Source: Acidobacteriota bacterium
GTDB lineage: Bacteria > Acidobacteriota > Vicinamibacteria > Vicinamibacterales > 2-12-FULL-66-21
Length of the DNA: 64,000 bases
NCBI GenBank assembly: GCA_003222675.1
Contig: QHWT01000069.1
Span: 1-64,000 of the forward strand
Direction: 5' to 3'
A program made the translations under genes and the position numbers. Below are positions 53,775 through 62,459 of the stretch, piece by piece (positions within the stretch are counted from its first letter, which is position 1; the number at the start of each line of letters is the position of its first letter). Under the pieces are notes generated by a model. The model saw nothing but the letters and a program-made list of their open reading frames with translations. It ran no database searches and was not told where the DNA came from.

Positions 53775-55007
53775 ATGGCTTCCAACACTCGACCGAGCGT
53801 ACGAAAGTGTTCGCTCCTTGCGGCCGCGGCGATTGCCGCTGCGATCGCGCGTCCGTCCGCTGCGCAGGAACCGACGCCCGATACGAGGACTGCGCTCATC
53901 GCGCAGCGCCAGGCAGAGAAGGCGCCGACGCTGCATCCCTACGAGCCCAGTCGCGTCGAGGCGACCGTCGATCGTCTCGAGGACATGTTCGTCAACGGCA
54001 CGGTGCACTGGCATCCGTTCTTCGAGAACGCGTACGCGGGCGGCGGATTCACGCTCGGCGCGGGCTACATGGCGCACCTGAGCGCGTACAACACCCTGGA
54101 TTTGCGCGGCAGCATCACGATCTCAGGCTACAAGCGGATCGAAGCGGCATTCACGGCGCCGCGGATATTCGAGCGCCGCGGCGTGCTGTCGGTCGTCGGC
54201 GGCTGGCGCGAGGCAACCGCAGTCGGGTTCTACGGATTCGGGACGGCTGGCACATCGTCACACGATCGCGTCAACTACGGGTTCAAGCAACCGTACGCGT
54301 CCGGGATGGTTGACGTCTATCCGACGCGACAGTTGCTCTTGATCGGCGGCGGCCTCGAACTGTCGCAGTGGGACCAGGAATCGGGCAGCGGCACCGCTCC
54401 ATCCATTGAGACCCGCTACACGCCGTCGACCCTCGTCGGCCTGGGCGCGAAGCCAACGTATCTGCACTCGCAGGCGCGCGTGGGACTCGATTGGCGCACG
54501 TCGCCCGGATATTCGCGGCGTGGCGGCTTCTACTCCATTACCTTCCACGATTTTCATGACCGGGATCACCGCTACGGATTCGACCAGATCGATTACGACG
54601 CCATCCAGCATCTGCCGCTCCTCCGCGAGACGTGGGTGCTGGCCCTGCACGGCCGCGTCGAATCGTCGATGGACAAGAACGGTGAAGATATTCCCTTCTT
54701 CATGCTGCCCGCGCTCGGCGGCGGCTCGACGCTCCGCGGTTTCGCCAGCTGGCGGTTTCGCGATCGCCACAGCCTGCTGATGCAGGCGGAGTGGCGCGTG
54801 ATGACCAACCGCTTCATGGACATGGCGCTCTTCTACGACACGGGAAAGGTCGCGAGCCGGAGCAGCAACCTGGACTTCGACGGCCTGAAGAGCGACTACG
54901 GGATCGGCTTCCGCCTGCACGGGCCGATGGTCACGCCGGTTCGCATCGAGCTGGCGAAGAGCAACGAGGGATTCGCGATCGTCTTCTCCTCGAAGGCGCC
55001 TTTCTGA
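53775..55007 (+). CDS. Outer-membrane beta-barrel, bacterial surface antigen (D15/BamA C-terminal) type
   Basis: Exported protein of 410 residues. A signal peptide covers about 1-30 (ends ARPSAA). The rest (about 75-410) is a barrel of alternating hydrophobic strands with the BamA-like signature ALGGGSTLRGFASWRFRDRH around 315-334, and ends in a phenylalanine (SSKAPF) as outer-membrane barrels do. There are no POTRA domains, so it is not a BamA itself. It may be a pore or export channel for partners. It is the first gene of a three-gene cluster followed, 9 bases later, by the gene at 55017. Confidence 0.85.
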   Translation: MASNTRPSVRKCSLLAAAAIAAAIARPSAAQEPTPDTRTALIAQRQAEKAPTLHPYEPSRVEATVDRLEDMFVNGTVHWHPFFENAYAGGGFTLGAGYMAHLSAYNTLDLRGSITISGYKRIEAAFTAPRIFERRGVLSVVGGWREATAVGFYGFGTAGTSSHDRVNYGFKQPYASGMVDVYPTRQLLLIGGGLELSQWDQESGSGTAPSIETRYTPSTLVGLGAKPTYLHSQARVGLDWRTSPGYSRRGGFYSITFHDFHDRDHRYGFDQIDYDAIQHLPLLRETWVLALHGRVESSMDKNGEDIPFFMLPALGGGSTLRGFASWRFRDRHSLLMQAEWRVMTNRFMDMALFYDTGKVASRSSNLDFDGLKSDYGIGFRLHGPMVTPVRIELAKSNEGFAIVFSSKAPF

Positions 55008-55016
55008 GGCCGACCG

Positions 55017-56658
55017 ATGACACGCACCGCTGCCTTGCTCGCATTCGTGGTGGCGCTCGCCGGCGCGGCGTTGCCGGCCGCGACGCCGCGCTTTTACAAC
55101 GACGATCCCATCGCGCGTGAACCGGAACTACAAAGCGCGGCCGGTGCCCAGGCAGAAAATATCGGGCTGTTCTACGAGCTCTCCTACAACCTGCTCGTGA
55201 CGACGAACTACAAAGCCTCCAACACGCGGGCGCAGAACCGGCGCGCGCGCTGTCTCCAGCGACGAGCTCCTGCGCGGACCGAACAGCGGACCGCCGCCGA
55301 ATCCCGAGCGGTGGGTGCTGATTCGCGAAAAATCGACCGGCTATGCGCCCGGATTCACCGCGAAGGATGGCAACGGCGAAACCTGGTTCCTGTCGTTCGA
55401 CCCTCCGAAGAATCCAGAGGGAGCGACGGCTGCGATGGTCGTCGCGACAAAACTGTTCTGGGCGCTCGGCTATAACCAGGTAGAGACGTTCCTTACGACG
55501 ATCGATCCGCGCAACATCCAGATCGATCCTCATGCGACGATCCGACGGCCCAACGGAAAGCGGACGCCGATGACGAACGATGATCTGGCCGCCGTCCTCG
55601 AGCGCGCTGCGCGCAACGCGAACGGTACGTATCGCGCCGCCGCCGGCCGTTTGCTCCAGGGCAAGATTCTGGGCGGGTTCAGGTACGAAGGCACGCGTCC
55701 GGACGATCCCAACGACATCGTGCCGCACGAACACCGGCGCGAGCTGCGCGCACTGCGTGTCTTCGGCGCATGGACGAACCTGACGGACCTGAAAGCGAGC
55801 AACACGCTCGACGCGCTGGTCGCCACGGACGGCCACCCGGTCGTGAAGCACTATCTGCAGGACGTCGGATCGACATTCGGGATGGCCGCCAACGGCCCGC
55901 ACGACTGGGATGAAGGTTGGGAGTACTCGTATGAAGGCGGCAGCACACGCCGCCGGATGGCCACGCTCGGCTTTGCGCTGAAGCCGTGGCAGACGATGCG
56001 CGTCACCCAGTATTCGTCGATCGGCCGTTTCGAAGGGCAGCGCTTCGATCCCACGACCTGGAAACCGCACACGCCGACGACCGCGTACATGGAAATGCGC
56101 GAGGACGATGCGTTCTGGGCGGCGCGGAGGGTGATGGCGTTCAGCGACGACCTGATTCGGACAGCGGTCCAGGCGGGGCAGTTCAGCGATGCAGCCGCCG
56201 AACAGCATCTGGCCGCGGTGCTGATTCAGCGACGCGACAAAATCGCTCGCGCGTACCTTCCAAAGCTCAATCCAATCGTGAACCCGCGACTCAGCGCGAA
56301 CGGATCGCTCACGTTCGAGAATGCCGCCGTCGAAGCGCGCGTCGCGGAGCACGCGCCCGCGTATCACGCGACGTGGTTCCAGTTCGACAACGCGACCGGA
56401 CAGACACGCCCGCTGGGAGCAACCCGCAGCACGACGACAACGGTTGCCGCCCCGTCCGGGCTGCCTGCCGCAACGGACACTTTCGTGGCAGTCGATCTGT
56501 CGGGGGACACGAACGCGTATCCATCGTGGCGGCAACCGGTGCGCGTGTATTTCCGTCGTGCGTCCGACGCATGGTCCCTCGTCGGCCTCGATCGTCAAGC
56601 CGATCGACCCGCAACCGCCGACAGACGGAGCACACCAACGCGGGACCACGACCGATAG
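55017..56658 (+). pseudogene. Secreted protein with kinase-like core, split by a frameshift
   Basis: Two frames together encode a protein of about 560 residues. The first part begins at ATG 55017 (MTRTAALLAFVVALAGAALP, signal peptide) and reads LFYELSYNLLVTTNYKASNT. At about 55237 it leaves the frame, and the second part continues with AVSSDELLRGPNSGPPPNPE ... to 56658. Near-homologues have about 17 more residues here. The later part has VFGAWTNLTDLKASNTLDA and KHYLQDVGSTFG, which resemble a kinase catalytic loop (D-x4-N) and a D-x-G motif. The position where such proteins have a catalytic Lys (K in FxKFDPP) is Ser (FLSFDPP). The function is unknown; a pseudokinase is possible. Confidence 0.55.
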
Positions 56659-56686
56659 CGGCTCCCGACACACGAAGATCAGGACA

Positions 56687-59248
56687 ATGCGCTGGGGGAC
56701 AGTTCTGGCGGGTGCGTCAATCGTCGCCGCGACAGCGGCAACGGTGCATGCACAACAGGCGCAAAAGGTCACAGCGGGCGCGGAGTTCGACGTCTCCGAC
56801 ACGGCGCGCCGCTGGCTTGGAAACGGCTACCGGGATGTCTGGGCCGAACCCTTCGAGGCGCCCGTGCTGGATCTCTCCCGCGAAGGCGGTGGCCTGGAGC
56901 CTGTGCGGCAAGTCGGACAACTGCAGACGGCGGGGCTCGCGTTCGTTGGCGCGGATGGAAATTCGTACACGTTTCGATCGCTCCACAAGGAACCCGAACG
57001 GATCCTGCCGCCCGAGTGGCGGAACAGTTGGCCCGCGAAGGTGCTGCACGATGCAACATCAGCGACCCATCCGGCCGCTGCCGTCATCCTGCCCGTGCTC
57101 GCCGAAGCCGCGCGCGTCCTCCACACGGAGCCACGGCTCGTCGTGATGCCCGACGATCCGCGGCTGGCGGCGTTTCGCTCCAGGTTCGCGAATCAGCTCG
57201 GCACGATCGAGGAATACCCGACAGCCGCTGCTCCCGGACACGCCGGCTTCCATGGCGCGACGGCGATCGTCTCCTCCTCCGCTCTCTGGACCCGGTGGTT
57301 AGAGGGGCCCGAGAACCGCATCGACACGCGCGCGTTTCTTCGAGCGCGCATCCTTGATCTCTTCGTGGAGAACTACGACCGCCGGCGTGGACAATGGCGC
57401 TGGATGCAGATTCCCGGTCAGCCGCGCTGGCAGCCGCTGCCCGAGGATCCCGACATGGTGTTCGTCCGCCACGACGGTCTCGTCGCTGCCGGCATGCGTG
57501 GTCGTCAACCGACATTGCTGGCGTTCTCGGACGACTTTCCGTCGAACCTCGAAGGCCCCACGCGCAATGCCGCGGAAGTCGATCGCTGGCTCCTCACCGA
57601 TCTCGAAGGTCCCGTGTTCACCGACACGGCGCGCGAGCTGCAGGCGGCGTGGACCGACGAGGTGATCGATCGCGCAATCGCACAAATGCCGAAGGAATGG
57701 CAGAGGGTCGACCATGGGTTCCTGGCGCAGTCGCTGCGCGCGCGACGCGCCGCACTCGTCCCTTACGTCGAGCATTTCTACCGCTACCTCGCGCGTGCGG
57801 TCGATGTTCATCTGACCAATCGCGACGAGCGGGTCTCGATCGCGACGGCCGACGACGGTTCAGCGACGCTGACGGCCACCGCCTCTGGCGAGACCGGCCC
57901 GTACTACTCGCGCCGATTCCTGCCAGCCGAGACGCGCGAAGTTCGCGTCTATCTGCACGGCGGCGTCGATCGTGTCGAGCGGACGGGGCGCTCGCGGCGC
58001 ATTCATATCCGCCTGATTGCCGACGGCGGCAACAAGATCGTGATGTCGGGCAACCGCACGTCCGAGGTCTGGGCCGAGGCCGGGCACGTAACCGGCGACC
58101 GGCTGAAACAGGAAGGCCCGTGGAAGAATCCGGAGCCCATCAAGGACGCCCCGTGGCTCGAGCCGCGCAGCTACGGTTCGCTGACGCTCTGGGAGCCGAT
58201 TGCCTGGATTGCGCCGGATGTCGGCTTCGTGCTGGGCGCCGGATGGACGCACACCGTGTACGGTTTCAGGAGCGAGCCCTTCGCGCAGGAGCACACGCTG
58301 AAAGCGGGATGGTCGTTCGGCGGTTCCAGCGGCAAGGTGCAGTACGACGGCTTGTTCAATCGACCGGGATCGCGTCTCGGCTATGGTGTCCGCACGTTCC
58401 TCTCCGGCGTCGAGCAGATCAATTACTTCGGCCTGGGGAACGAGACGCCCGAGCAGTCGAACAAGTCCCGCTATCATTCGCGCCAGAGCGTGATATCGCT
58501 CGCGCCGGCGCTTCGTTACATCCCCTCGAGGGCCTTCTCGATCACGATCGGACCGGAGATCCGCTACTCGCGCTCGGGGCAGACCGCAGGTTCGCTGTTG
58601 TTCGAGCAGAAACCGTACGGCACGGGCGATTTCAATCTCGTCGCGCTGCGTGGCGGCGTCGAGCTCGATACGCGGAAGACGTCCAGGACGAGCGTGCTCG
58701 ACGTGACCAGCGGCGTGCCCGCGGGAGACGCGGCAGCGGATCTGCCGCCCGGCCGGGGCCTTCTCGCGCTGGCCTCGGCGTCGGTGACGCCCGGCGCGTG
58801 GGACGTCACGGAGACCTACAGCGCGATCGACGGCTCGATCGCGGCCTACATCGGCAACACGCACGTGCAGCTCGCGAGCAGAATCGGCGGAAAGCGACTG
58901 TTCGGCGAATATCCGTGGTTCGACGCAGCGTCGATCGGCGGACGCAACGATCGCGGCTATCACAGTCATCGATTCGCGGGCGACGGATCGTTGTACGGCA
59001 ACGTCGAGATCCGCATGTACTTCGGACCACCGCGTTTTTCGTCGGTGTTCCCGGTACGGTTCGGCCTCGTCGGATTCGTGGATACCGGACGCGTCTGGCT
59101 CGAGGGACAAACGTCCCATCAATGGCATCCGTCGGCGGGCGGTGGGCTGCTCATGAAACCGATTGGAACCGGGATCGTCCTGCGGGCTGCCGTTGCTGCC
59201 GGATCGGAAGGCCCCCTGCTCTACATCGGGTCCGGTTTCCGTTTCTGA
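56687..59248 (+). CDS. Outer-membrane barrel fused to a kinase-like domain
   Basis: Protein of 853 residues. A signal peptide covers about 1-23. Residues about 85-400 form a conserved domain with FRSLHKEPERILP, HPAAAVILPVLAEA, LVVMPDDPRL, FVENYDRRRGQWRWM and LPEDPDMVF, in that order; related proteins of Bacteroidota read DWDRHxDQWRW and RDRDQAF here, which look like a kinase catalytic loop and metal-binding Asp. Residues about 500-853 are a D15-like barrel ending FRF. The gene is 28 bases after the previous gene (AGGA Shine-Dalgarno). Its partner barrel lies at 53775-55007. Function is unknown; an outer-surface or periplasmic phosphotransferase is an inference. Confidence 0.75.
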   Translation: MRWGTVLAGASIVAATAATVHAQQAQKVTAGAEFDVSDTARRWLGNGYRDVWAEPFEAPVLDLSREGGGLEPVRQVGQLQTAGLAFVGADGNSYTFRSLHKEPERILPPEWRNSWPAKVLHDATSATHPAAAVILPVLAEAARVLHTEPRLVVMPDDPRLAAFRSRFANQLGTIEEYPTAAAPGHAGFHGATAIVSSSALWTRWLEGPENRIDTRAFLRARILDLFVENYDRRRGQWRWMQIPGQPRWQPLPEDPDMVFVRHDGLVAAGMRGRQPTLLAFSDDFPSNLEGPTRNAAEVDRWLLTDLEGPVFTDTARELQAAWTDEVIDRAIAQMPKEWQRVDHGFLAQSLRARRAALVPYVEHFYRYLARAVDVHLTNRDERVSIATADDGSATLTATASGETGPYYSRRFLPAETREVRVYLHGGVDRVERTGRSRRIHIRLIADGGNKIVMSGNRTSEVWAEAGHVTGDRLKQEGPWKNPEPIKDAPWLEPRSYGSLTLWEPIAWIAPDVGFVLGAGWTHTVYGFRSEPFAQEHTLKAGWSFGGSSGKVQYDGLFNRPGSRLGYGVRTFLSGVEQINYFGLGNETPEQSNKSRYHSRQSVISLAPALRYIPSRAFSITIGPEIRYSRSGQTAGSLLFEQKPYGTGDFNLVALRGGVELDTRKTSRTSVLDVTSGVPAGDAAADLPPGRGLLALASASVTPGAWDVTETYSAIDGSIAAYIGNTHVQLASRIGGKRLFGEYPWFDAASIGGRNDRGYHSHRFAGDGSLYGNVEIRMYFGPPRFSSVFPVRFGLVGFVDTGRVWLEGQTSHQWHPSAGGGLLMKPIGTGIVLRAAVAAGSEGPLLYIGSGFRF

Positions 59249-59334: not shown

Positions 59335-60234
59335 TCATTGACTACCGCGCTCGCGACGAAGCAGCCGGCGTCCTCTCTCCAGCTCCTTACGCCTTTCTGC
59401 GGTCAGCTCGGGAAATGCCAGGTCGAGCTCCTCGAGCGCATGTACGACCGTGGCCGCCACGACCCAGCGCGCAAACCATTTGTCGTCCGCCGGGACCACC
59501 ACCCACGGCGCGTGCGGCGCGGCGGTGTGGCGAATGGCGTCTTCGTACGCGTCCGCATAATCGTTCCAGCGCTCCCGCTCGCGGAGGTCACCGAGAGAAA
59601 ACTTCCACTGCTTTTCCGGTTCTTCAAGGCGCTTTGCAAAGCGCTTGGCCTGCTCCTTCTTCGACAGGTGCAGAAAAAACTTGAGGATGGTGTATCCGTT
59701 CCGGGCGAGGTAGCGCTCGAAGGCGTTGATATCCTCGAACCGTTCCTTCCAGATGTGCCTGGTGATCAGCGGCCGCGGGATCTGCTGCTTGTCGAGGAGC
59801 TCCGGGTGCACGCGCACGACGAGCACCTCCTCATAATAGGAGCGGTTGAAGATGCCGATACGCCCCCGCTCGGGCAGACAGACGAGATTGCGCCAGAGAA
59901 AATCGTGATCGAGATCCTGGGCCGACGGCTGCTTGAATGAAAACACCTGGCAGCCTTGAGGGTTGATACCGGACATCACGTGCTTGATCACGCCATCTTT
60001 GCCGGCGGCGTCCATCGCCTGAAAAATCAGCAGCACGCCCCAACGATCCTGGGCATAGAGCTTTTCCTGAAGATCGCGCAGCCGGGAGACCCCCTCCTGC
60101 ACGACCTGCTCGGCGAATCCTTTGTCCGTCTTGAATCCATCGGTACCTCGAGGATCGATCTGTTTCAGTCTGAAATGGCGACCATCGCTCACGACGTACC
60201 GCGCGATCAGCTTGTCCGTCCGGATCTTGCTCAT
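59335..60234 (-). CDS. Polyphosphate kinase 2 family enzyme
   Basis: Polyphosphate:nucleotide phosphotransferase of 299 residues (from ATG 60234). The Walker A motif is MDAAGKDG (about 74-81), the Walker B motif is IFNRSYYEEVL, and IWKERFEDINAFERYLARNG is the typical lid region. The C-terminal DLRERERWNDYADAYEDAIR and HAPWVVVPADDKWFARWVV are conserved in the class. Single-domain PPK2 usually phosphorylates ADP or AMP with polyphosphate; the class is not certain. It is the last gene of a minus-strand run next to uvrC. Confidence 0.93.
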   Translation of the reverse strand: MSKIRTDKLIARYVVSDGRHFRLKQIDPRGTDGFKTDKGFAEQVVQEGVSRLRDLQEKLYAQDRWGVLLIFQAMDAAGKDGVIKHVMSGINPQGCQVFSFKQPSAQDLDHDFLWRNLVCLPERGRIGIFNRSYYEEVLVVRVHPELLDKQQIPRPLITRHIWKERFEDINAFERYLARNGYTILKFFLHLSKKEQAKRFAKRLEEPEKQWKFSLGDLRERERWNDYADAYEDAIRHTAAPHAPWVVVPADDKWFARWVVAATVVHALEELDLAFPELTAERRKELERGRRLLRRERGSQ

Positions 60235-60305
60235 GAACCATCCCCGCTTCTGCCACATCGGCCGGTGCAGGAGATATTACCGGCTGCGGAGCGATCGCCG
60301 ACGGG

Positions 60306-62459
60306 TCAGCCGCGAACGGCGGCGAAATGCGCCAGCACGGCATCCGCGCATTTCACGCCGACGACGGCCGTCAATTCCTCGCGGTTTGCGCGGCGCACGC
60401 CGGCGACGCTGCCGAACGCGGTCAGCAGCGCCTTGCGACGGCGCGGCCCGACGCCGCCAATGCGATCGAGCTCCGACTGCAGGTCGCGCTTCGCACGCGA
60501 CTGCCGATGGAACGTGACGGCGAAGCGGTGCGCCTCGTCGCGGATCCGCTGAATCAGCAGCAGGGCCGGGCTGTTTGGTGTGAGCGCAATCGGGTCGACG
60601 TGCTCGCGCGTGAAGAGCAGCTCCTCCTTTTTCGCGATGCCGACCGCCACGATGTTCGCCAGCCCGAGCTCCTCCAGCGCGTGATACGCGGCCGCGAGCT
60701 GCCCCTTGCCGCCATCGATGATGATCAAGTCCGGAAACGGTCCGCCGTTCTCCATCACCTTCTTGTACCGGCGCAGCACGACTTCGTGCATGGAGGCGAA
60801 GTCGTTGAGGATGCGGGACGCGGGCTCCGGGGTGCGGGGTGCGGGGTCCGGGGTGCGGGGTGCGGGGTCCGGGGTGCGGGGTGCGGGGTCCGGGGTGCGG
60901 GGTGCGGGGTCCGGGGTGCGGGGCGCGGGGTGCGGGGTGCGCAGTTCGAAGTCGGTCGAACCAGAGTGCTGCATTTCCGCGCCCCGCGTCCCCTGTCCCG
61001 CATCCCGGCTGGGTATTTCCGCGCCCCCCGCCCCGCGCCCCGCACCGTGGATCCGGAACTTCCGGTACTCCGCCCGCTTCATCCTGCCGTCCTCGCACAC
61101 GACCATCGACGCGACGGTCTCGCTGCCCTGGATCGTGGAGATGTCGAAGCATTCGATACGCCGCGGGATGGCCGGCAGGTTGAGGACGGCGCGGAGCGTT
61201 TCGAGCGCGTCGTAGTGCGCCGCGACGTTCTCGTTGAACCGCGTCTGATACGCGACCTGCGCATTCCGGGCCGCGAGATCGAGCAGTCCTCGCTTCTCGC
61301 CGCGTTTTGGGACAATCAGCCGGACGCGGTGATCGGATCGATCCGTCAGCCAGGCTTCAATCACTTCGCTTTCAGACTCACTCAGCGCAACCGGCAGGTG
61401 CACTTCCGGCGGCGCGGGATGTTCGGAATAGAACTGCTCGAGCGCGGCTTGAAGGACCTCCTCTTCCCCGCCTTCGGCTCGCCGCGGCTTCGGCGGCGCC
61501 TCGCCAGAGTCCGCGGGGATCTCAGCGCGAGCGGCGGGCGCCTGAAGGCGGAAGCCACCTCGTTCGATTTGGGAATCGGGCTCGTGCTGAATGTTCGAGT
61601 CCGTGACGAGCTCGATCCGCTCGACCACTTTCCCGCCGCGAACCTGGAACACCTGCACGACGGCGCCGGCCGGGCCGACCTTCAGGCCGAACGCATCGCG
61701 ATCCCCGAGCTCCGTGCCGGCCATCTTCTGCTGGCGCTGGCGCACCGTGTCGATCGTGCGAATCGCGTCGCGCAGCTGTGCGGCCTGCTCGAAGCGTTCC
61801 TCGAGCGCCGCCTCGGTCATCCGCTGCCTCAGATCGGCAACCAGCTCGTCGTTGCGTCCCTCGAGAAAGAGTTTCGTATGCTGCACGGCCACCGCGTATG
61901 TCTCCTCCGAGCAAATCTCGCGCACGCACGGCGCGATGCACCGCCGGATGTCGAACTCCAGGCACGGCCGCGGCCGCTCGCCCGTAATCACCTCGTTGCA
62001 CGATCGAATGCCGAACAGCCGGTGCGTCAGCGCCATCGTCCGCCGTCCAAGCTTGGCCGGCATGAACGGCCCCGCATAGAAGTGATCGTCTTTCTCCACG
62101 CGCCGCGCGACCAGCACGCGCGGGAACGGCTCCCCCGTGGTCAGCTGGAGGTAGGGATAGTTCTTGTCGTCGCGAAGCAGGATGTTGTACTTCGGCGCGC
62201 GCTGTTTGATCAGATGGTTCTCGAGCGCCAGCGCCTCCACGACCGAGTCCGTGACGATGAACTCGACGCGCGACGCTTCATCGAGCAGCGCATCGATGCG
62301 CGGACTCATGCCCTGCGCGCCGAGATAGCTGCGCACCCGATCGCGCAGCACGCGCGCCTTGCCGATGTACAGAGTCTCTCCGCCCCCGTTGTAATAGAGG
62401 TAGACGCCGGGCTGCTCCGGCAGGCGGGAAATCTGGCCCTTGAGGTCCTGAATCGGCAT
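60306..62459 (-). CDS. uvrC: Excinuclease ABC subunit C with in-frame repeat expansion
   Basis: Nucleotide-excision repair endonuclease of 717 residues, about 100 longer than usual. The GIY-YIG domain is at about 10-95 (PGVYLYYNGGGETLYIGKAR), the UvrB-binding motif at about 205-240, the RNase H-like domain at about 420-640 and the helix-hairpin-helix pair at the C-terminus (LDRIGGVGPRRRKALLTAFG). Two stretches are not normal: about 295-335, holding a REP-like palindrome (61536-61560), and about 472-547, with six 7-residue units (RTPDPAP and variants) encoded by 21-base tandem repeats. The second lies inside the RNase H domain, between EYRKFRI and NDFASMHEVVLRRYKK, so it would extend a surface loop of the catalytic domain. 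Confidence 0.95.
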   Translation of the reverse strand: MPIQDLKGQISRLPEQPGVYLYYNGGGETLYIGKARVLRDRVRSYLGAQGMSPRIDALLDEASRVEFIVTDSVVEALALENHLIKQRAPKYNILLRDDKNYPYLQLTTGEPFPRVLVARRVEKDDHFYAGPFMPAKLGRRTMALTHRLFGIRSCNEVITGERPRPCLEFDIRRCIAPCVREICSEETYAVAVQHTKLFLEGRNDELVADLRQRMTEAALEERFEQAAQLRDAIRTIDTVRQRQQKMAGTELGDRDAFGLKVGPAGAVVQVFQVRGGKVVERIELVTDSNIQHEPDSQIERGGFRLQAPAARAEIPADSGEAPPKPRRAEGGEEEVLQAALEQFYSEHPAPPEVHLPVALSESESEVIEAWLTDRSDHRVRLIVPKRGEKRGLLDLAARNAQVAYQTRFNENVAAHYDALETLRAVLNLPAIPRRIECFDISTIQGSETVASMVVCEDGRMKRAEYRKFRIHGAGRGAGGAEIPSRDAGQGTRGAEMQHSGSTDFELRTPHPAPRTPDPAPRTPDPAPRTPDPAPRTPDPAPRTPEPASRILNDFASMHEVVLRRYKKVMENGGPFPDLIIIDGGKGQLAAAYHALEELGLANIVAVGIAKKEELLFTREHVDPIALTPNSPALLLIQRIRDEAHRFAVTFHRQSRAKRDLQSELDRIGGVGPRRRKALLTAFGSVAGVRRANREELTAVVGVKCADAVLAHFAAVRG
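60826..60942. repeat. 21-base tandem repeat inside uvrC
   Basis: About five copies of a 21-base unit (GGGGTGCGGGGTCCGGGGTG plus one base) are contiguous and in frame; on the coding strand they give RTPDPAP and variants. Units are perfect in the centre and degrade at both ends. Nothing like spacer sequence separates them, so it is not CRISPR. Confidence 0.9.
61536..61560. repeat. REP-like palindrome inside uvrC
   Basis: GGCGCCTGAAGGCGGAAGCC reads as one arm and loop of the dispersed palindrome also present at 29161-29190 and 50268-50287, followed by ACC. It is translated in frame (RGGFRLQAPA). Confidence 0.65.

Follow-up and report, generated by a model that had tools for sequence, protein, structure and literature searches.

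Exported kinase-like proteins paired with or fused to Omp85-type barrels, and their association with NTT transporter genes, in Acidobacteriota

We analyzed a 64,000-nucleotide stretch of DNA from a soil bacterium of the Acidobacteriota (positions 1 to 64,000 of contig QHWT01000069.1, assembly GCA_003222675.1), which is called the window below and carries the label G000:C57 – G standing for genome, L for locus and C for contig. The host genome is 7.16 Mb. A first-pass annotation had described a cluster of three genes in the window, encoding a lone outer-membrane barrel, an exported protein and a second barrel fused to another domain, and had pointed to kinase-like motifs in the latter two. All three genes and the quoted motifs were confirmed (Table 1). 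The genes lie on the + strand with intergenic gaps of 9 and 28 bases, and we refer to genes 2 and 3 as KIN-M and KIN-F, respectively. Comparing this locus with other genomes, we show that predicted exported proteins with kinase motifs are paired (KIN-M) or fused (KIN-F) with an Omp85 barrel, and that genes for NTTs – the ATP/ADP transporter family (Pfam TLC, PF03219) – co-occur with them.

Table 1. Features of the three-gene cluster (window coordinates).
Feature	Position	Strand	Details or basis
Gene 1, lone Omp85-type outer-membrane barrel	53775..55007	+	410 aa, signal-peptide-like N-terminus
KIN-M (gene 2), overall	55017..56658	+	Exported kinase-like gene, two frames instead of one
KIN-M 5' fragment: signal peptide and N-terminus	55017..55475	+	Homology of this frame ends at ~55228
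KIN-M deletion junction, ~50 bp, out of frame	55222..55240	+	DNA alignment against intact G017 and G003
KIN-M kinase-like part, second frame, open	55228..56658	+	First start codon 55315; profile match 55228-56601
KIN-M beta3 Lys position, Ser in window	55393..55395	+	Alignment; FVKFD in intact P0004
KIN-M catalytic-loop motif TDLKASNTLD (D-x-[KR]-x-x-N)	55783..55812	+	Family alignment
KIN-M metal-binding (DFG-like) motif YLQDVGSTFG	55852..55881	+	Family alignment
KIN-F (gene 3), exported kinase-like domain fused to Omp85-type barrel	56687..59248	+	853 aa, signal-peptide-like N-terminus
KIN-F kinase-like domain, about residues 26-395	56762..57871	+	AF2 model and Foldseek
KIN-F FRSLHKEP, candidate ATP-binding Lys101	56972..56995	+	Lys retained in every aligned member spanning the site
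KIN-F catalytic-loop motif ENYDRRRGQWRW, Asp231	57368..57403	+	CtkA loop match and alignment
KIN-F metal-binding motif EDPDMVF, Asp254/Asp256	57443..57463	+	Alignment
KIN-F C-terminal barrel	58163..59245	+	Barrel-profile match

The sole domain of gene 1 is an Omp85 match (Pfam PF01103; E 1.8e-9, 38 bits against a cut-off of 24) at residues 269-395, which bears out its description as a lone barrel. No POTRA domain was found in gene 1 by a profile search of the window proteins, and the stretch between signal peptide and barrel leaves little space for one. Gene 1 and the C-terminus of gene 3 carry the C-terminal Omp85/D15 barrel profile and so fall within the Omp85 superfamily; with N-terminal POTRA domains absent from the profile search, gene 1 does not group with BamA, TamA or TpsB. 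It resembles the noNterm Omp85 subfamily, whose barrels likewise lack an N-terminal extension, but differs in forming an operon-like pair with KIN-M (Heinz and Lithgow, PMC4104836). The text of that paper mentions neither Acidobacteria nor kinases.

KIN-F begins with a signal-peptide-like segment and a domain of ~370 residues; a beta-rich region follows, and then the C-terminal Omp85-type barrel, where residues 688-853 match the NCBIfam model Omp85_fam (NF047779) at an E of 6.3e-17, below the curated 200-bit cut-off. The kinase-like motifs are conserved above chance in both proteins: all 17 KIN-F homologues share D-R and D-x-D, and among 30 aligned KIN-M homologues D-x-[KR]-x-x-N and the D-x-G Asp vary little or not at all. 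The KIN-M motifs also follow the order seen in kinases, with the beta3 Lys (FxxKFDP) first, a Glu in the helix after it, D-x-[KR]-x-x-N and finally D-x-G.

The window copy of KIN-M is broken. The ~50-bp deletion takes out an NTxxEVPDSSWFTNR motif that is near-invariant among the 30 homologues, and the protein part encoded in the second frame retains 67% identity to its intact counterpart in G017, so the break looks recent or could be an assembly artefact. Serine replaces the beta3 Lys and methionine the alphaC Glu. The loss is shared with a subclade whose genes are otherwise intact (G017, G014, G117 and G029): together with the window copy, they have Ser or Gln in place of the Lys and a replaced Glu, with the later motifs retained; these losses therefore probably predate the frame break. 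The gene is the only KIN-M in the host genome, and when beta3 Lys, alphaC Glu, catalytic Asp, metal Asp and an intact frame are considered together it does not qualify as an active kinase. The annotation had proposed that both kinase-like proteins may be pseudokinases. That is likely for KIN-M and is not indicated for KIN-F, where the core residues (Lys101, Asp231-Arg232 and Asp254/Asp256) are all in place. The window copy of the system is thus probably reduced to a working KIN-F plus barrels.

Family profiles for both non-barrel parts, and a fold search for KIN-F, suggest domains with an atypical kinase fold. Pfam HipA_2 weakly matches 11 of the 30 KIN-M homologues (best 8e-4) and HipA_C two of them (best 8e-5), suggesting that KIN-M is remotely HipA-like; a search of PDB sequences with KIN-M gave no useful match. 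The KIN-F profile aligned with the catalytic loop of CtkA (PDB 3akj; LLGNFDRHNGNW) at an E of 0.036. An AlphaFold2 model of KIN-F (residues 26-500, folded from 10 sequences; mean pLDDT 63, pTM 0.65) was compared with the PDB using Foldseek, and the best 50 matches listed were all to the kinase superfamily: they include Vps34/PI3K (Vps34 E 3.4e-3, prob 0.87), FAM20 (prob 0.92), CotH, MSMEG_1954, mTOR and protein kinases. FAM20 and CotH are two of the folds with which the annotation had suggested a comparison. The model-based evidence for a kinase fold in KIN-F is good but not conclusive.

These relationships are distant. Like HipA, HipA-like kinases and CtkA, the two proteins have a characteristic spacing of catalytic-loop and metal-binding motifs, but unlike them they are predicted to be exported and are paired with or fused to barrels, and no HipB-like partner was seen. 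The secretory FAM20 and spore-coat CotH proteins are likewise atypical kinases whose site of action is extracytosolic, but they have no barrel, and KIN-F gave no family-level sequence match over cut-off; among the window proteins, CotH PF08757 reached 10.8 bits against a cut-off of 23.8 (E 0.35).

To place the cluster in context, we surveyed 297 genomes of Acidobacteriota and fetched loci for a neighbourhood scan. KIN-M is present in 51 of these genomes and KIN-F in eight. In 50 of the 51 KIN-M loci (L017 and L021, both counted, are the same DNA) a homologue of the gene 1 barrel is no more than 300 bp away; in the remaining one, L137, KIN-M is at the contig end. Every complete KIN-F ORF examined has the barrel fused. 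KIN-F comes within 5 kb of KIN-M in three places only – the window, G003 (divergent) and G262 – so the pair and the fusion are general and the three-gene order is not. A conserved three-gene operon was accordingly rejected, and with it the idea that the three genes might always occur together. KIN-F was also found in Granulosicoccus-group and Robiginitomaculum metagenome-assembled genomes (MAGs) and on Hymenobacter, Persicobacter and Parabacteroides plasmids, of which Hymenobacter and Persicobacter provide the Bacteroidota relatives that the annotation had mentioned. The closest matches to the window KIN-F are in the MAGs 'Acidobacteria bacterium isolate gp6 AA38' and 'Vicinamibacterales bacterium'. 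We found no relatives on viral contigs and no KIN-M relatives on plasmids.

Several loci present variants of these proteins. A Hymenobacter radiodurans plasmid (L155:6780-10538) encodes a 1252-aa protein, P0008 (WP_133271096.1), with a KIN-F domain followed by a barrel-like C-terminal part; its N-terminus is phosphoesterase-like by eye, and Pfam gave no match. In L074 and L075 (G088 and G060), KIN-F adjoins an exported animal-type haem peroxidase (PF03098) with no NTT beside it. L018:14312-15679 (G047) encodes an exported kinase-like protein with GDRKAPN and IIQDLGATFG motifs that is remotely KIN-M-like and lies ~4-5 kb from an NTT and a KIN-F.

Many of the loci contain an NTT gene. Six of seven linked transporter proteins tested passed the 21-bit cut-off of PF03219, the one from L025 giving no match. 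Of the 51 KIN-M loci, 21 have an NTT within 5 kb and 11 have one within 1 kb, and in eight (L116, L119, L121, L127, L133, L134, L153 and L081) it is directly downstream of KIN-M on the same strand. Six of 15 KIN-F loci have an NTT within 2 kb, namely those of G047, G262 and four Granulosicoccus-group MAGs, and G075 adds a divergently oriented one. In G262 (L073), barrel-KIN-M, NTT and KIN-F form a single cluster. In L084 (G305:C21; 2895-5339) one open frame of 847 aa spans both an NTT and the lone barrel, which may reflect a fusion or a missing stop. These transporters belong to the same family as the NTT/TLC proteins whose characterized members serve intracellular parasites and plastids and whose role in free-living bacteria has been left open (Major et al. 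2017, PMC5381601); the word 'kinase' does not occur in the text of that paper.

The neighbourhoods also include a third exported kinase-like family of ~275 aa, KIN-S, which sits with NTT and calcineurin-like phosphatase genes (Metallophos 2.4e-13). KIN-S matches Pfam PI3_PI4_kinase at 27.2 bits, against a cut-off of 27.1, and FAM20A among PDB sequences at 2.6e-5; in comparisons of its profile with those of KIN-M and KIN-F the motifs are in register and the alignments without significance. In L162, L167, L171, L173 and L176 phosphatase and KIN-S share one ORF, a probable fusion judging from the reading frame. In G029 (L082), which is of the same order as the window, a phosphatase and two KIN-S genes are grouped with an NTT, a barrel and KIN-M. 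L159, L168 and L176 combine a standalone NTT with small exported PI3K/FAM20-like kinases (KIN-S) and a degenerate paralogue, alongside a calcineurin-like phosphatase that is also exported. The host genome carries two KIN-S genes outside the window. KIN-S is near an NTT in 13 of 15 fetched loci, a count that is biased because many loci were fetched for holding an NTT.

Counts at the genome level are free of that bias. NTTs are present in 48 of 51 genomes with KIN-M, 7 of 8 with KIN-F and 59 of 59 with KIN-S, compared to 120 of 297 overall (Fisher p 9e-19, 0.008 and 8e-29, respectively, with shared ancestry ignored). Tannase, a control family of similar frequency, showed little association (34 of 70 genomes with NTT, p 0.07). 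Using the Pfam model alone, an NTT is detected in 40 of 51 KIN-M genomes versus 37 of 246. Altogether, 84 Acidobacteriota genomes encode KIN-M, KIN-F or KIN-S, and 80 of these have an NTT.

How might these parts work together? ATP is generally taken to be absent from the periplasm, so exported kinases would need an energy source. We propose that the NTT supplies the periplasm with ATP, taking up ADP or another nucleotide in return, and that the exported kinase-like proteins would spend it in phosphorylating a substrate in the periplasm, at the surface or of lipid nature. The barrel may anchor the kinase-like proteins at the outer membrane or pass them through it, and the exported calcineurin-like phosphatases of related genomes could take the phosphate off. 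We consider it an even call that the cluster in the window is a partly decayed copy of such an extracytoplasmic, ATP-fed phosphotransfer module coupled to outer-membrane barrels. By homology, the module would be spread across Acidobacteriota and, for KIN-F, would extend to Gammaproteobacteria and Bacteroidota. The fuller proposal – an outer-envelope phosphorylation system in which NTTs export ATP, several exported atypical kinase families use it, calcineurin-like phosphatases reverse the reaction and Omp85 barrels position the kinase at the outer membrane – is the boldest reading, to which we give a little under an even chance.

Several observations weigh against the phosphotransfer module. 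Foldseek gave no match for KIN-F at E<=1e-3, and the matches listed are weak (best 3.4e-3, TM <=0.34). The model of an intact KIN-M (P0004, two-row alignment) had a pLDDT of 43, too poor for a fold search, and direct profile comparison of KIN-M with KIN-F produced no alignment and hence no detectable relationship. No NTT gene was found in the window; the only ones found in the host genome are a divergent, long (HEAT-type) pair on C64 of 1065 and 1232 aa. Among the 84 kinase-bearing genomes four have no detected NTT, and all three kinase-like families are missing from 40 of the 120 NTT genomes. The disregard of shared ancestry in the Fisher tests belongs with these points.

Of the alternatives, one is that the kinase-fold domains have a role other than phosphorylation – AMPylation, another transfer reaction or a pseudokinase scaffold – with barrel and partner forming a structural or envelope-assembly unit to which the NTT may still supply nucleotide. 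The intact KIN-M subclade without Lys and Glu, whose member G117 still has an NTT directly downstream, fits this, as do the Gln that replaces the kinase Asn in most KIN-F members (DRHxxQWRW) and the DFGKH found in place of DWDRH in the Hymenobacter copy P0008. The catalytic and metal-binding Asp are nevertheless kept in most KIN-M and nearly all KIN-F, and phosphatase genes or fusions adjoin KIN-S, and we think this explanation rather unlikely.

The barrel could instead be the translocator of a secretion system, of the two-partner or type Vd PlpD style, that delivers the exported protein to the cell surface or the exterior, with a passenger that happens to be kinase-like. Such systems also place an exported protein beside, or fused to, an Omp85-superfamily barrel, and the tight pair and the fused form recall the TpsA/TpsB and PlpD layouts. 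They differ from the genes described here in that our barrels have no POTRA found, the passenger is kinase-like and an NTT is associated; no TpsA secretion domain or POTRA-bearing TpsB profile was detected in genes 1-3, and the short stretch before the barrel of gene 1 also speaks against it. Secretion leaves the NTT link unexplained and is compatible with the phosphorylation proposal; as an explanation in its own right we regard it as improbable. NTT and exported kinase-like genes could also be found in the same lineages and neighbourhoods with no functional coupling between them, for example in nucleotide salvage islands. This would account for the NTT genomes lacking all three families and for the 30 of 51 KIN-M loci with no NTT within 5 kb. 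Given that the genes are adjacent in operon-like fashion in many bacterial families and in another phylum, that three kinase-like families are involved and that a control family is not clearly associated, coincidence of this kind seems very improbable to us.

Two features lie downstream of the cluster. An ORF facing it (59335-60258, - strand) is PPK2-type polyphosphate kinase-like by eye. The next, at 60306-62459 (- strand), is UvrC-like by eye and contains at 60700-61000 a short peptide repeat run (APRTPDP...) encoded by a direct DNA repeat.

The component parts described here belong to known superfamilies, and what is novel is their combination, of which we found no description in the open-access PMC literature, subscription papers and preprints lying outside that scope. 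An NTT gene adjoining exported kinase-like genes is a concrete candidate for the source of ATP in the periplasm. If the phosphorylation proposal is true, it would explain why many free-living bacteria retain NTTs – the role left open in PMC5381601 – and would add a new type of partner for Omp85 barrels.

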